Assembly (NCBI RefSeq): GCF_004563925.1
Contig: NZ_SPNJ01000005.1
Span: 1 to 64,000 of the forward strand
DNA: 64,000 nt
From: Herbaspirillum sp. 3R11
Lineage (GTDB): Bacteria > Pseudomonadota > Gammaproteobacteria > Burkholderiales > Burkholderiaceae_D
Reading direction: 5' to 3'
Each line of letters starts with the position of its first letter. The stretch's first letter is position 1. Both the position numbers and the translations under genes were made by a program. The notes below the pieces were generated by a model that ran no database searches, had not been told where the DNA came from, and saw only the letters and a list, made by a program, of their open reading frames with translations. This document shows, one piece after another, positions 4,637 to 37,739 of this stretch.

Positions 4637-4777
4637 AACCTGCCTGGGATCCTACTGCGAGGCCATGATCCGGCGTCGGGCGGTGCTCGGAATCCTCACG
4701 TACTAAAGTACGCTCCGGTTCCTGCGCTCCGGCCGCCACCGGCTGATGGCCTCTCGCTACGGATCGCAGACAGGTTT
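4636..4777 (+). repeat. 142-base imperfect inverted repeat (intercistronic hairpin)
   Basis: Starts at the last base of the binding-protein stop codon. Outer arms are AAACCTG (4636-4642) and CAGGTTT (4771-4777). Inner arms share GCGAG..GGCCAT with small mismatches. The apex is a perfect CGTACT-AA-AGTACG (4699-4712). The arms pair over most of about 70 bases. It has the look of a dispersed intergenic palindrome. Between a binding-protein gene and its permeases such a hairpin can protect upstream mRNA or reduce readthrough; that role is inferred. Confidence 0.8.
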
Positions 4778-21088: not shown

Positions 21089-21655
21089 GTGAAACCACTC
21101 CATAAAACAGCCGGTACGCTCGGCGCGTTGACAGCTTTGCTGGTGCTGGGCGGCTGCGTCAGCGTCCCGACCGGCCCCTCGGTCATGGCCATGCCGGGCA
21201 ACGGCAAGTCGTACGAGCAATTCCGCAGTGAACAGCAGCAGTGCCAGCAATATGCCCAGGACGCCATCGGCGGGCAGGCGCAGTCGACGCAGAACAATGC
21301 CACCAACAGCGCTGTCGCGGGCACCGCGATCGGTGCCGTAGCGGGTGCGTTGATCGGCGCAGCTTCGGGCAATGCCGGCGCAGGTGCTGCGATCGGCGCC
21401 GGCGGCGGTCTGCTGGTCGGCAGTGCGGCCGGTAGCAACGCATCGGCAGGCGGCAACTATTCGATGCAGCAACGCTACGATATGACCTATAGCCAGTGCA
21501 TGTACAGCAAGGGCAACCAGATCCAGACGCAGCAACAGGCCACCACGGTCTACAGCTATCATCCGCGGCGCTACTATTACGCACCGCCGCCTCCACCGCC
21601 CGGTTACTACGGCCCGCCGCCGGGATATTACGGTCCGCCACCGGGCGCGTATTGA
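21089..21655 (+). CDS. Glycine-zipper outer-membrane-type lipoprotein
   Basis: A 188-residue lipoprotein. The lipobox LGGC is at about residues 20-23 and a glycine-zipper segment (AGTAIGAVAGALIGAASGNA) at about 80-100 could insert in a membrane. The tail repeats GYYGPPP and ends PPPGAY. The start is a GTG with AAGGA upstream; no suitable ATG exists. Function unknown; proteins of this kind are linked to envelope integrity. A strong terminator follows. Confidence 0.78.
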   Translation: MKPLHKTAGTLGALTALLVLGGCVSVPTGPSVMAMPGNGKSYEQFRSEQQQCQQYAQDAIGGQAQSTQNNATNSAVAGTAIGAVAGALIGAASGNAGAGAAIGAGGGLLVGSAAGSNASAGGNYSMQQRYDMTYSQCMYSKGNQIQTQQQATTVYSYHPRRYYYAPPPPPPGYYGPPPGYYGPPPGAY

Positions 21656-21669
21656 CAGCCTGATCTTCC

Positions 21670-21701
21670 AAAACCGCCTCCTGCAAACGAGGCGGTTTTT
21701 T
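21670..21701 (+). terminator. Intrinsic terminator after lipoprotein gene
   Basis: AAAACCGCCTC, 8-base loop, GAGGCGGTTTTTT. A strong stem with a U-tract isolates trpS from the genes upstream. Confidence 0.93.
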
Positions 21702-21755
21702 CTTGGAAAGTCGGTCGGGCAGGGCTTTTTGCGCTGCATCATGGGCAAGGCTTGA

Positions 21756-21764
21756 TGCTATACT
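21756..21764 (+). promoter_or_regulatory. Extended -10 promoter of the trpS leader
   Basis: TGCTATACT, an extended -10 element. Transcription would be expected to begin about 7 bases on, close to the ATG of the leader peptide at 21771. No convincing -35 is seen. Confidence 0.45.
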
Positions 21765-21770
21765 TCGCCG

Positions 21771-21824
21771 ATGCAATACAGAATTCATCCCTCACTACAA
21801 CTCCAGCATTGGTGGCGCACCTGA
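21771..21824 (+). CDS. trpS leader peptide with tandem Trp codons
   Basis: A 17-codon open frame reading MQYRIHPSLQLQHWWRT and stop. Two adjacent TGG codons (21810-21815) are striking in so short a peptide. No ribosome site precedes the ATG, which lies about where transcription should begin, so it may be read as a leaderless message. It is followed by mutually exclusive RNA stems and a terminator ahead of trpS. The role as a charged-tRNA-Trp sensor is inferred. Confidence 0.65.
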   Translation: MQYRIHPSLQLQHWWRT

Positions 21825-21905
21825 TTCGGGTGGCCCGCTTTTGCACAGCTTTGTAGTACAGCTTTTGTCAATGTGATGCCGCCGGTCCGGGCGGCATTGT
21901 TTTAT
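21811..21905 (+). promoter_or_regulatory. Ribosome-mediated attenuator of trpS
   Basis: Segment 1 (21815-21821, GCGCACC) overlaps the second Trp codon and pairs with segment 2 (GGTGGC, 21829-21834), with one bulged G. Segment 2 can instead pair with GCCGCC (21878-21883) through one G-U pair. That pairing would break the terminator stem ATGCCGCC (21876-21883) / GGCGGCAT (21890-21897), which is followed by TGTTTTA. The arrangement matches a trp-type attenuator: stalling at the Trp codons would favour readthrough into trpS. Confidence 0.65.
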
Positions 21906-21945
21906 GCGGCGAGACTGGCAGCGTTCCGAAATTACCGGAGTGACC

Positions 21946-23010
21946 ATGTCCTTGAATGTTTCGCCTGCGTCTGCAGCACCTTCAACTTCCAGCGTTTCCA
22001 ACAAGCCGTCCGCGCGTCCCATTGTTTTGACCGGCGACCGTCCGACCGGTCCGCTGCATCTCGGCCATTACATCGGCTCGCTGGTGTCGCGCGTGCAGTT
22101 GCAGGACGAAGCCAGCCAGTTCCTGCTGCTGGCTGACACCCAGGCCATGACCGACAACGTCGGCCGCCATCAGAAAGTCACCGACAACGTGCTGGAAGTC
22201 GCGCTCGACTATCTGGCCGTCGGCATCGATCCGGAAAAATCCACCATCTTCATCCAGTCGCAAGTGACCGAGCTCTACGAGCTGTCAATGCACCTCCTGA
22301 ACCTGGTCAGCGTGTCGCGCCTGGAGCGCAATCCGACCATCAAGGAAGAGATCCGCCTGCGCGGTTTCGAGCGCGACATCCCGGCCGGCTTCCTGACGTA
22401 TCCGGTCAGCCAGGCCGCCGACATCAGCGCCTTCAAGGCCACGCTGGTGCCGGTCGGCAACGACCAGTTGCCGATGATCGAGCAGACCAATGAACTGGTG
22501 CGCCGCTTCAACAATGTGGTCGGCAAGGACGTGCTGGTGGAATGCAAGGAAGTGCTGTCAGAAACCGGGCGCTTGCCCGGCATCGACGGCAAGGCCAAGA
22601 TGAGCAAATCGCTGGGCAATTCAATCGCGCTGGGTGCTTCGCCGGCCGAGATCAAGCAGGCCGTGCAGCGCATGTACACCGATCCGAATCATTTGCGCGT
22701 CGACGATCCGGGCCAGGTCGAGGGCAACGTGGTGTTCGCCTTCCTTGATGCCTTCGAGCCGGATCGGGCGGCGCTGGAAGAGCTCAAGCAGCACTACCGC
22801 CGCGGCGGTCTCGGCGACAGCGTACTCAAGCGCCGCCTGGAAGGCCATCTGCAGGAATTGCTGGAGCCGATCCGCACACGCCGTGAACAATGGCAGCAGG
22901 ATCGCGGCGAAGTGATGGCGATCCTGCGTCGCGGCACCGAGCGTGCGCGTGCGGCAGCCGCACAGACCGTGTCGGAAGTGCGCGGCGCGCTCGGCCTGAA
23001 CTACTTCTAA
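21946..23010 (+). CDS. trpS: Tryptophanyl-tRNA synthetase
   Basis: A 354-residue class I aminoacyl-tRNA synthetase charging tRNA-Trp. The HIGH-type motif is HLGHY in [16 protein letters not shown], and the KMSKS loop is present. The start ATG has GGAG 5 bases upstream; the frame is open back to 21904 inside the attenuator, which is not translated in this model. The N-terminus has a Ser/Pro-rich extension of about 20 residues before the catalytic fold. Confidence 0.96.
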
Positions 23011-35887: not shown

Positions 35888-37739
35888 ATGCGCCGATATC
35901 CCAGACTACGTCTGCACGAACCGCGCCGCGCAAGGCATTGCAGATCATCACCGCATCGGCGCGGCGCAGTTCCTCGCGCGTGATGCTGCGCTCGGTCGCG
36001 GCCCATGCGGGATCGGCGAGCAGCACCGAACGCATCACGCCGGGCAGCGCACCGGCCGCCAGCGGCGGCGTGTACCAGCGACCATCCAGTTGCACGAAGA
36101 CATTGCTGCGGCCGCCTTCAGTCAGTTCGTCACGTTCGTTGAAGAACAGCGCGTCGAAACCGCCGCGCCGCTCGGCGTCTTTCCAAGCTTCGTCGTAAGC
36201 GGTGCGCATTGACGTCTTGTGGCGCAGGAACAGATCGTCGCTGGCGCTCGGCATAGGTGAGATGAACACTTTCACAGTTGCACCTAGCGCCGACAGCGCG
36301 CCTTGCTGCAAGCGGACCGCGCTGTCGCGGAACAGGTCCAGCCGCAAGCGATGCGGCGTTGCCGGAGGCAGTTGCGCGCAGGCTTCGGTCAACGCATTGC
36401 GGATGGTCGTTTCATCGAATGTGAAATTGAAATACGCCGCCGAGTTCTGCAGCCGCCGCAGATGCAGGTCCAGGTGGCGGCAGCCGTTTTCATGGTCGGC
36501 ATGGATGGTTTCGAACAGGCTGAAGCCGCCATCGAGGCCGGTCAGGAATGCCGACTTCAAGCGGCATTCGGCAAACTCATCTGCGGCCTTGCTGTCGTAG
36601 ACAATGCCGGCGCCTACACCCATTTCACCGCGGCGCAGACTTTGTTCAGGCGCTTGCAGCGCCAGTGTGCGAATCGGCACCGACAGGCAGAAATCGCCCA
36701 CGGTACGACCTGGCTCGGCAGCGTCGAACCAGCCGATGGCGCCGGTGTACAAGCCGCGCGGCGTCGACTCGAGTTCTCGAATGATTTGCATGGTGCGGCG
36801 TTTGGGCGCGCCGGTGATCGATCCGCAAGGATAGAGAGCGGCCACCACGTCGGCGATATGCGCATCGTCGCGCAGTTGCGCCGTGACGGTCGAGGTCATC
36901 TGCAACACCTGGCCGAAGCGGCCGACTGCGAACAACTGCGGCACCTGCACCGAGCCGGCGACGGCGACGCGGCCGAGGTCGTTGCGCAGCAGGTCGACGA
37001 TCATCAGGTTCTCGGCGCGGTTCTTTTCATCGTTCGCCAGCTGAACGGCGCGGCGGCTGTTTTCGGCCGCGTCGTCATGCGCCGGTGCGGTGCCTTTCAT
37101 CGGCTGGGCGAGCAGCTTTCCCTGCGTGTGGCGGACGAACAGTTCCGGCGAAAACGACAGCACCCAACGCTCATCCGGCAGGCGGATGAGCGCGCCGTAC
37201 GGGACCGGCTGGCGCGCGCGCAGTTTGTTGTACAGGCTGAGCGGTTCGCCCCAGGCATAGAAATGCAGACGGTAGGTGTAGTTGACCTGATAGGTGTCGC
37301 CGGCTGCAATGTAGTCGCGGATGCGCGCGATGTCGGCGCTGAAACGCTGTTCGTCGACGCTGGCGCGCACGTTGGCGACGCCGGCTTCAGCAGGAATCGC
37401 ATCTTGTTGCTGTTGCAGCCAGTCATCGGTCTGCGCAGCGCTGAGACGGCGGCAGTCGGTGAACAGCAGAATTTCTGCCAGCGGACCCTCCTGGTCGGCA
37501 TGCGCTTCAATGCCGTGCAAGCATCCTCCCAGCTCATAGCTGAACAGCGCCACCGCATGCAGGCCCTTTTGTTGCGCCGCCTGCATGTCGGCGAGCATGT
37601 CCGCCATGCCGTTCGCATCTTCACAGCGCAGCGTCGCCTGATAGCCGGTGTACAGGCGCGAACGCGGTTCGTCCAGGCGTGCGTTGGCATCGCCGTGGCG
37701 GTAGCTGTCGTCGAGCAGGGCGAAGCAGGGGAGGGACAT
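35886..37739 (-). CDS. pabBC: Fused aminodeoxychorismate synthase I / aminodeoxychorismate lyase
   Basis: A 617-residue fusion for p-aminobenzoate synthesis in the folate pathway. The N-terminal two-thirds is PabB: GDTYQVNYTYRLHF, the LMIVDLLRNDLGRVA block and GSITGAPKRRTMQII line the chorismate site. The C-terminal third (from about residue 400, GGFSLFETIHADHENG) is a PLP class IV enzyme like PabC. Its Lys candidate is in LRHKTSMR and NERDELTEGGRSNVF is conserved. The ATG at 37739 lacks a strong ribosome site; a TTG at 37760 is in frame. No pabA glutaminase is nearby. Confidence 0.92.
   Translation of the reverse strand: MSLPCFALLDDSYRHGDANARLDEPRSRLYTGYQATLRCEDANGMADMLADMQAAQQKGLHAVALFSYELGGCLHGIEAHADQEGPLAEILLFTDCRRLSAAQTDDWLQQQQDAIPAEAGVANVRASVDEQRFSADIARIRDYIAAGDTYQVNYTYRLHFYAWGEPLSLYNKLRARQPVPYGALIRLPDERWVLSFSPELFVRHTQGKLLAQPMKGTAPAHDDAAENSRRAVQLANDEKNRAENLMIVDLLRNDLGRVAVAGSVQVPQLFAVGRFGQVLQMTSTVTAQLRDDAHIADVVAALYPCGSITGAPKRRTMQIIRELESTPRGLYTGAIGWFDAAEPGRTVGDFCLSVPIRTLALQAPEQSLRRGEMGVGAGIVYDSKAADEFAECRLKSAFLTGLDGGFSLFETIHADHENGCRHLDLHLRRLQNSAAYFNFTFDETTIRNALTEACAQLPPATPHRLRLDLFRDSAVRLQQGALSALGATVKVFISPMPSASDDLFLRHKTSMRTAYDEAWKDAERRGGFDALFFNERDELTEGGRSNVFVQLDGRWYTPPLAAGALPGVMRSVLLADPAWAATERSITREELRRADAVMICNALRGAVRADVVWDIGA

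Follow-up and report, generated by a model that had tools for sequence, protein, structure and literature searches.

In the genome of Herbaspirillum sp. 3R11 we analyzed a stretch of 64,000 nucleotides (contig NZ_SPNJ01000005.1, positions 1 to 64,000; hereafter, the window), in which trpS, the gene of a second tryptophanyl-tRNA synthetase (TrpRS), is preceded by a short leader. To judge from sequence comparison and predicted folding, this leader is very probably a trp-type ribosome-mediated transcription attenuator controlling an auxiliary synthetase gene of the TrpRS II type. In addition to the three alternating pairings, it appears to contain a fifth segment that covaries with its partner and is, we suggest, a new addition to the trp-type attenuator; a weaker pairing with the Shine-Dalgarno (SD) sequence of trpS mostly overlaps it, and possibly provides the attenuator with a second, translational output. 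Proteobacterial amino-acid attenuators are known chiefly for biosynthesis operons; the present one is found with the gene of an auxiliary tRNA synthetase, and this in three classes. The first-pass annotation of this DNA, which had proposed a trpS attenuator, underestimated it in several respects: the enzyme is a TrpRS II-type second synthetase, the element is found in three proteobacterial classes and on plasmid-labelled records, and the covarying fifth segment comes on top of the three pairings then described.

In the proposed mechanism, RNA polymerase would start at the leader ATG and the ribosome would read the leader as a leaderless frame. When charged tRNA-Trp is scarce, the ribosome would stall on the Trp codons and cover segment 1, and pairing 2:3 would form; with 2:3 in place the terminator would fail and trpS would be made. 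When charged tRNA-Trp is plentiful, the ribosome would reach the stop codon and cover segment 2, and hairpin 3:4 would end transcription. The spare TrpRS would thus be made, as the arrangement suggests, when charged tRNA-Trp runs short, for example when the main enzyme is inhibited.

Architecture of the trpS leader

All parts of the leader lie on the forward strand. An extended -10 element (TGC-TATACT, 21756..21764) is followed by six bases, TCGCCG, and then by the leader ATG at 21771, which is also the predicted transcription start. The leader frame MQYRIHPSLQLQHWWRT (21771..21824) has 17 codons and no SD sequence and is predicted to be leaderless; its tandem TGG codons (21810..21815), the proposed sensor, are conserved in relatives, and its stop codon occupies 21822-21824. 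Segment 1 (21806..21823) folds with segment 2 (21827..21844) into a hairpin of -19.2 kcal/mol, and bases 21829-21834 of segment 2 can instead pair with 21878-21883 of segment 3 in the proposed stalled-ribosome state. Segment 3 together with the terminator loop (21884-21889) spans 21875..21889, and segment 4 with the U tract spans 21890..21903; the folded terminator, 21875-21883/21890-21898 (-16.8 kcal/mol), is followed by GTTTT (21899-21903), the end of which is separated by 42 bases from the trpS ATG at 21946. The three pairings are mutually exclusive, and all of them are found in the window. In the 42-base interval, segment 5 (21910..21924) is complementary to 21876-21889 (-19.3 kcal/mol), and segment 5b (21922..21928) to the SD region of trpS (segment 6, CGGAGTG, 21936..21942; -7.5 kcal/mol), bases 21922-21924 being common to 5b and the 3:5 pairing. 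The -10 element, the six-base linker, the stop codon and the SD region were read directly from the sequence, and segments 1 to 4 were placed by folding.

The element is real and the coordinates given in the first-pass annotation are right. The Trp-Trp leader peptide, the exclusive geometry of 1:2, 2:3 and 3:4 and the terminator just ahead of trpS, all claimed there, are supported, to the extent that sequence allows, by the window itself, by relatives and by the simulations described below.

Conservation of the leader in the family

A short ATG-initiated leader frame with tandem Trp codons was found upstream of trpS in 61 of the 105 orthologues of the family, and seven further orthologues have a leader with a single Trp codon. 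For folding and covariation we used 49 family sequences in two alignments, set A, which includes the window, and set B; the 12 sequences of a Janthinobacterium-type genus (g6) and the seven single-Trp sequences stand outside these sets, g6 being run apart. Counted from the first base of the Trp codons, the stop codon begins after 12 bases in 43 of the 49, after 15 in five and after 36 in one; the N-terminal part of the leader peptide is variable among relatives. This pattern bears on the distinctly improbable alternative that the sequence is conserved because of a trans-acting product, either the terminated leader RNA or the peptide, like rnTrpL/peTrpL of Sinorhizobium. The predicted leaderless RNA of about 130 nucleotides has the same general make-up, and that system is a precedent for trans-action (PMC7298713). 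Against it, the N-terminus of the peptide varies, and conservation is seen in the Trp codons and in how far they lie from the stop; moreover, action in trans would supplement attenuation and not replace it.

Conservation of the Trp codons was further assessed with a model, R1, of the stretch that follows them, which is blind to the TGG bases themselves. Of the 105 family loci, 100 were scanned with R1 and 67 matched at 30 bits or more; in 60 of these TGGTGG occupied the six bases directly 5' of the match, against a background of 0.0006 per position; this figure is partly circular, since R1 was built from 43 sequences that had been picked for their Trp pair. The remaining seven matched loci have one TGG in the leader, and none of the 67 lacked TGG altogether. 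In the Herbaspirillum genome itself the trpS site was the best of 12 R1 matches (47.5 bits), whereas the pattern TGGTGGCGCNCC occurred at 27 places and is not specific. The only helix in the final R1 was the terminator, with 10 pairs, we think because the register of 1:2 differs between two clades. The check for conserved Trp codons that the first-pass annotation had proposed gave a result that supports it. The single-Trp leaders are L030, L037, L067, L074, L097, L065 and L021; one clade of them ends in WRRS*, and in L021 an ATG replaces the second TGG.

The compensatory changes proposed as another check gave a divided answer for 1:2. Cognate arms matched better than permuted ones in set A and in a thinned set (12 and 13 of 20000 permutations, respectively, did as well), and failed to do so in set B. 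Within the genus, the window and its nearest relative have an A-U pair where the other members have G-C, and the last residue of the peptide changes from A to T. The right arm of the terminator ends in a stretch with five or more T in nine bases in 54 of 68 family leaders.

Promoter spacing and leaderless start

In a best-match scan, 53 of the 61 family leaders and 32 of 40 others (85 of 101) have a -10-like hexamer that ends 6-7 nucleotides ahead of the leader ATG; among the 40 are nine same-family loci, some from genomes already represented in the 61, and a small number of misassigned leaders. An SD-like site precedes the leader in only two of these 101 cases, and trpS in 77. In one clade, TTGACA stands 17 bases before the -10 element (by eye). 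Transcription starting on the A of the leader ATG is the pattern expected from such spacing, and the transcript start near the ATG that the first-pass annotation had anticipated is in keeping with it, as far as can be read from DNA. Leaderless translation of the leader frame is likely, because of the spacing in 85 of the 101 leaders and the SD-like site in only two.

Ribosome position and the choice between pairings

When RNA ending at the terminator was folded at equilibrium, 3:4 formed wherever the ribosome was placed (three states) in every sequence but L047 (48 of 49); for this reason the folding was done on RNA ending at segment 3. The mean probability of 2:3 was then 1.00 with the ribosome stalled on the Trp codons and 0.23 with the ribosome at the stop codon, the change having the same direction in all 49 sequences; the simulation concerns geometry only. 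Shuffling the linker, from the covered part to segment 3, reduced the switch from 0.77 to 0.02, and the observed value was the larger in 49 of 49. Without a ribosome, the probability of 2:3 was 0.27 in set B, where 1:2 is favoured, 0.80 on average in set A and 0.40 in the window.

Distribution among proteobacteria

Outside the family sample, tandem-Trp leaders were present at 18 of 22 newly fetched loci of the order (34 further genomes had a match, of which 22 were fetched and 12 left out) and at 15 of 18 new loci from a sample of 398 genomes of the phylum. They were also found at 33 of 80 named loci, these being the best 80 of 584 confirmed relatives and including some genomes of the family set. 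Named carriers among the 80 include Herbaspirillum, Massilia, Paraburkholderia, Burkholderia and Cupriavidus cauae and, further, an Aeromonadaceae assembly, Mesorhizobium, Salipiger and Reyranella; a Chromobacterium leader has three Trp codons. The carriers span alpha-, beta- and gammaproteobacteria.

TrpRS II-type genes (E-value 1e-100 or better) were found on 71 plasmid-labelled records, 23 of them from Staphylococcus and some of the 71 of chromosome size; the records from other genera include E. coli, Shigella and Klebsiella. Of eight records that were opened, seven contain a tandem-Trp leader, namely those of Escherichia coli (pB379_2), Variovorax, Vibrio, Photobacterium, Methylocystis, Burkholderia and Aeromonas, and the leader is missing in the eighth, from Rhizobium leguminosarum. 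On pB379_2 the trpS gene has its full leader, and its neighbourhood is flanked by IS26 upstream and IS1 downstream.

Evidence against attenuation, and chance resemblance

A number of observations weigh against the proposed attenuator. The plain fold of the 140-nucleotide leader is unremarkable relative to shuffled sequences (z -0.79; 40 of 200 shuffles equal it), and generic promoter and terminator scans made no call at the trpS leader, since its -35 element is poor and its U tract is interrupted by G. The tandem-Trp leader is missing in 44 of the 105 family orthologues, 37 of them without any recognised leader, and at 47 of the 80 named loci, 19 of which are from Acinetobacter; among these best 80 of 584 relatives it is absent from all 19 Acinetobacter, all five Undibacterium and both Herminiimonas loci, from both Pandoraea loci and from five of seven Cupriavidus loci. 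The formation of 3:4 at equilibrium whatever the position of the ribosome means that any switch would have to be kinetic, and set A without a ribosome favours 2:3 over 1:2. In set B, 1:2 shows no covariation (10818 of 20000 permutations); 2:3 varies too little for any signal; and for 3:4 the figures are 7059 of 20000 in set A and 604 in set B.

The unremarkable single-sequence fold and the silence of the automatic promoter and terminator scans are what one would see if a chance short frame had come to lie before the ordinary terminator of the upstream gene. Nevertheless, we consider this extremely improbable: the parts are conserved across orders and classes, the switch is lost when the linker is shuffled, and a terminator-like hairpin belonging to the upstream frame itself was noticed by eye at 21673-21701. 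It is the conservation in relatives that lifts the leader element above chance and, barring some different reason for it, contradicts a chance origin.

A fifth segment

Downstream of the U tract and ahead of trpS lies a stretch complementary to segment 3 and the terminator loop. The best 3:5 duplex has at least seven pairs in 48 of 49 family sequences and six in the remaining one (L042). For covariation, the loop bases or segment 3 were compared with the whole unselected downstream stretch, and cognate partners with permuted ones. In the family, 46 haplotype pairs gave z -8.1, and 27 pairs left after thinning gave z -7.0, with none of 20000 permutations as good in either case. A second set comprised 24 haplotypes not named as belonging to the same family, which remained from 40 loci found after removal of nine same-family loci and of repeated haplotypes; here z was -9.2 (0 of 20000), 20 of the 24 fell below z -2 relative to dinucleotide shuffles (the exceptions are L138, L153, L213 and L221), and the cognate was the single best partner in eight of 24. 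In a third set, 15 loci of the phylum sample, z was -5.3 (0 of 20000). Permutation leaves some relatedness in this test; the three sets agree. The automatic detection of leaders and terminators misassigned some loci, such as L138, L145, L150 and L213: L138 and L213 were counted as misses among the 24 haplotypes, and L145 and L150 were removed with the same-family rows. In the phylum set, fixed windows clipped some members (by our reading L235, L239 and L243), weakening those rows.

Support for 5:6, the pairing with the SD region, is uneven. Covariation was seen in the 24 haplotypes (1 of 20000, z -4.8), in the phylum set (78 of 20000, z -2.6) and in set B when the segment was chosen (36 of 20000). 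However, several results speak against this pairing: with the unselected stretch, set B gave 2002 of 20000; in set A, which holds the window, covariation is missing (z 0.1 and 1.8); and relative to dinucleotide shuffles only seven of the 24 haplotypes fall below z -2. Overlap between the best 3:5 duplex and the best 5:6 duplex was observed in family sequences (20 of 21 and 24 of 28) and in all 15 phylum loci.

The role of segment 5 in the control of trpS can be reasoned out only with less confidence. If 2:3 has formed, simple parity leaves segment 5 free to close the SD sequence, which has the wrong sign. The mean 3:5 duplex is stronger than the mean 2:3 duplex (-18.7 vs -12.4 in set A, -16.2 vs -10.9 in set B), and 3:5 begins in loop bases that are unpaired in 2:3 and that lie in a tight loop once 3:4 is finished. 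Segment 5 could therefore displace segment 2 but not segment 4, 3:5 being stronger than 2:3 and starting in those loop bases. On this basis, and less surely than the transcriptional steps above, segment 5 of the read-through RNA might invade segment 3 through the unpaired bases of the terminator loop, and 5b would be kept off the SD sequence (the on state); where 3:4 forms first, 5b might pair with the SD sequence and leaked transcripts would be closed (the off state).

The main rival to a segment 5 switch is a plain mRNA-shaping role, in which 3:5, as a 5' hairpin, would block an RNase site or else stabilise or shape trpS mRNA that has been read through, the SD pairing being of secondary importance; the attenuator stands in either case. 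We regard this as quite plausible, somewhat short of an even chance. Segment 4 and the U tract lie inside pairing 3:5, which cannot affect termination once that has been decided. At equilibrium the position of the ribosome makes no difference to the openness of the trpS start (p 0.24), a null result that also tells against the second output, as does the missing covariation of 5:6 in set A; and 3:5 is retained in 12 of 12 g6 leaders that have no U tract. In full-length RNA without a ribosome, the equilibrium probability of 3:5 was 0.39 on average in set A, 0.06 in set B and 0.01 in the window. On the other hand, a stabilising hairpin does not call for the overlap of 3:5 and 5:6 in most sequences, nor for covariation of 5:6 in two sets from outside the family.

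The most far-reaching version of our proposal is a portable and widespread attenuator with two outputs. In it, the chain of pairings 1:2, 2:3, 3:4, 3:5 and 5:6 would pass the charging state of tRNA-Trp first to the terminator and then to the ribosome-binding site of trpS, with leaked transcripts remaining untranslated, and the whole unit, from the leaderless promoter to the TrpRS II gene, would move among alpha-, beta- and gammaproteobacteria, including on plasmids, as a self-regulating spare synthetase that comes on when the resident TrpRS fails. We put this forward tentatively, as a possibility that we hold to be rather doubtful in its entirety. The fifth segment nonetheless offers a testable case of transcriptional and translational control from one leader decision, and the comparative set supplies natural variants for it: single-Trp leaders, and leaders without a U tract but with 3:5.

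Leaders with poor U tracts

The U tract is poor in 14 of the 68 family leaders, 12 of which belong to the Janthinobacterium-type genus g6 (e.g., L044, L049 and L172). This genus retains the Trp codons and 3:5 and has lost both the U tract and the stop codon close by. Its 3:5 duplex, present in all 12 leaders, has -19.7 to -22.4 kcal/mol, and 0 to 4 of 200 shuffles equal it. No long-type TrpRS, the other type found in the family, was detected in the 12 g6 genomes carrying the short trpS; taken over the family, of the genomes that lost the U tract 13 have no long-type match and one (G139) has a truncated long type, which amounts to only three changes on the tree. By eye, L213, L215 and L220, from alphaproteobacteria or so titled, appear to have a Trp leader and segment 5 with a poor U tract. 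The g6 leaders are a natural candidate for translational-only control, and L213, L215 and L220 might be further translational-only versions.

These poor U tracts, together with the retention of 3:5 in g6, are the observations that would favour a mainly translational mode of control throughout, with the leader ribosome deciding access to the trpS start and 3:4 being a weak or non-functional terminator. As a general account we find this improbable. Five or more T are retained in the other 54 of the 68 family leaders, and formation of 2:3 would free 5b to close the SD sequence, which is opposite to what induction by starvation requires unless segment 2 is displaced by segment 5.

The synthetase encoded by trpS

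The genome encodes two tryptophanyl-tRNA synthetases, the 354-amino-acid enzyme of the window (21946..23010, forward strand) and one of 399 amino acids on another contig. The latter is assigned to NCBIfam family NF008922 (770 bits, cut-off 572), and the former clears only the cut-off of the general family TIGR00233. Compared with solved structures, the 354-amino-acid enzyme gives E-values of 6e-121 to 1yi8 and 4e-120 to 2a4m, the next being 5e-68; among solved TrpRS it is by sequence closest to these two, which we take to be TrpRS II of Deinococcus radiodurans.

The short type, to which the 354-amino-acid enzyme belongs, is found in 105 and the long type in 145 of 195 family genomes, a long type being called at an E-value of 1e-100 or better, so that a more divergent further TrpRS could escape. 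Both types are present in 57 of the 105 genomes with the short type. The other 48 have no long-type match, which counts against a uniformly auxiliary role: the short TrpRS is therefore not always auxiliary. It is auxiliary in the Herbaspirillum genome and may be the sole TrpRS in many relatives. The suggestion that genomes retain the attenuator only if they have a second TrpRS was not supported: in a comparison of independent pairs, leader presence did not follow long-type status.

Relation to known attenuators

The E. coli trpL/trpE attenuator has tandem Trp codons followed by Arg, the three pairings 1:2, 2:3 and 3:4 and a terminator before the gene, and in all of these the trpS leader resembles it. 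In contrast to trpL/trpE, the element in the window would control a synthetase and not biosynthesis, its leader has no SD sequence, and a fifth segment and an SD pairing are present. By its predicted features the trpS leader is of the trp attenuator kind: it has those features of the family that can be looked for in sequence, stays below the Rfam threshold and adds segment 5. It aligns to positions 1-100 of 100 of RF00513 (Trp_leader) with 22 bits and an E-value of 0.026, and the gathering score of 41 was reached by none of 20 loci, the window and 19 relatives. An Rfam scan of the whole window gave only sX9, away from the trpS leader. A low-threshold Rfam search of 21700-21990 returned, up to an E-value of 10, three matches, this weak Trp_leader and two unrelated ones, with no T-box among them; the same database searched at E-values up to 0.5 on nine loci gave no Trp_leader and one unrelated weak match. 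Because it lies below the Rfam threshold, the element is probably unannotated in many genomes, an expectation drawn from the Rfam result only.

No proteobacterial trpS attenuator was found in the open-licence literature searched. Vitreschak and others reportedly surveyed proteobacterial attenuators in 2004, and Vecchione and Sello (2010), to go by the title, are said to have described attenuation of an auxiliary, antibiotic-resistant TrpRS gene. A candidate attenuator precedes trpS2 of Streptomyces avermitilis (PMC1262725). The Streptomyces case is similar in that an auxiliary trpS is placed under an attenuator; it differs in being actinobacterial, and the accessible part of its description mentions neither a leaderless start nor a fifth segment. 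Amino-acid attenuators serve mostly biosynthesis genes in a regulon study based on Rfam motifs (PMC3766115). Bacilli have hisS paralogues with a His leader peptide (PMC2965389), likewise duplicated synthetase genes under a leader-peptide attenuator; in contrast to trpS, these concern histidine and Firmicutes, and the main text of that paper contains neither trpS nor the string tryptoph.

The enzyme and the leaderless RNA have separate counterparts. Like the product of the window trpS, whose best structural relatives by sequence are 1yi8 and 2a4m, TrpRS II of Deinococcus radiodurans is a second TrpRS; it has a nitric oxide synthase as partner. We know of no segment 5 in peTrpL/rnTrpL of Sinorhizobium meliloti, which shares with the trpS leader an attenuator RNA starting at the leader ATG and differs from it by controlling trpE(G) and by its roles in trans. 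This Sinorhizobium RNA has its first base at the ATG of trpL and may serve as a leaderless mRNA (PMC7298713). The Deinococcus enzyme is induced by radiation damage, and the section of the description available to us, unlike the case presented here, mentions no attenuator (PMC9437257).

Neighbouring genes and other features

Upstream of the trpS leader a glycine-rich frame ends at 21655, and downstream of trpS a histidine-kinase-like frame lies on the opposite strand (both names were read from the translations); with these neighbours trpS appears to stand alone. Elsewhere in the window, the sX9 match (RF02228, a Xanthomonas small RNA) covers 4698-4771 of the forward strand with 45 bits against a gathering score of 44. 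A trpE-like (chorismate-binding) match on the reverse strand at 36549-37397 is below the cut-off and belongs to a 642-amino-acid frame that is likely pabB. On another contig of the same genome (C7), a trpE match at C7:5356 is preceded by the leader frame MFLNKKLNANKSAAPEAWLWRRWQSWAN with four Trp codons (L116:1174-1260), after which come a GCTGGC/GCCAGC hairpin and a run of T; this trpE leader is perhaps a second Trp attenuator in the genome.
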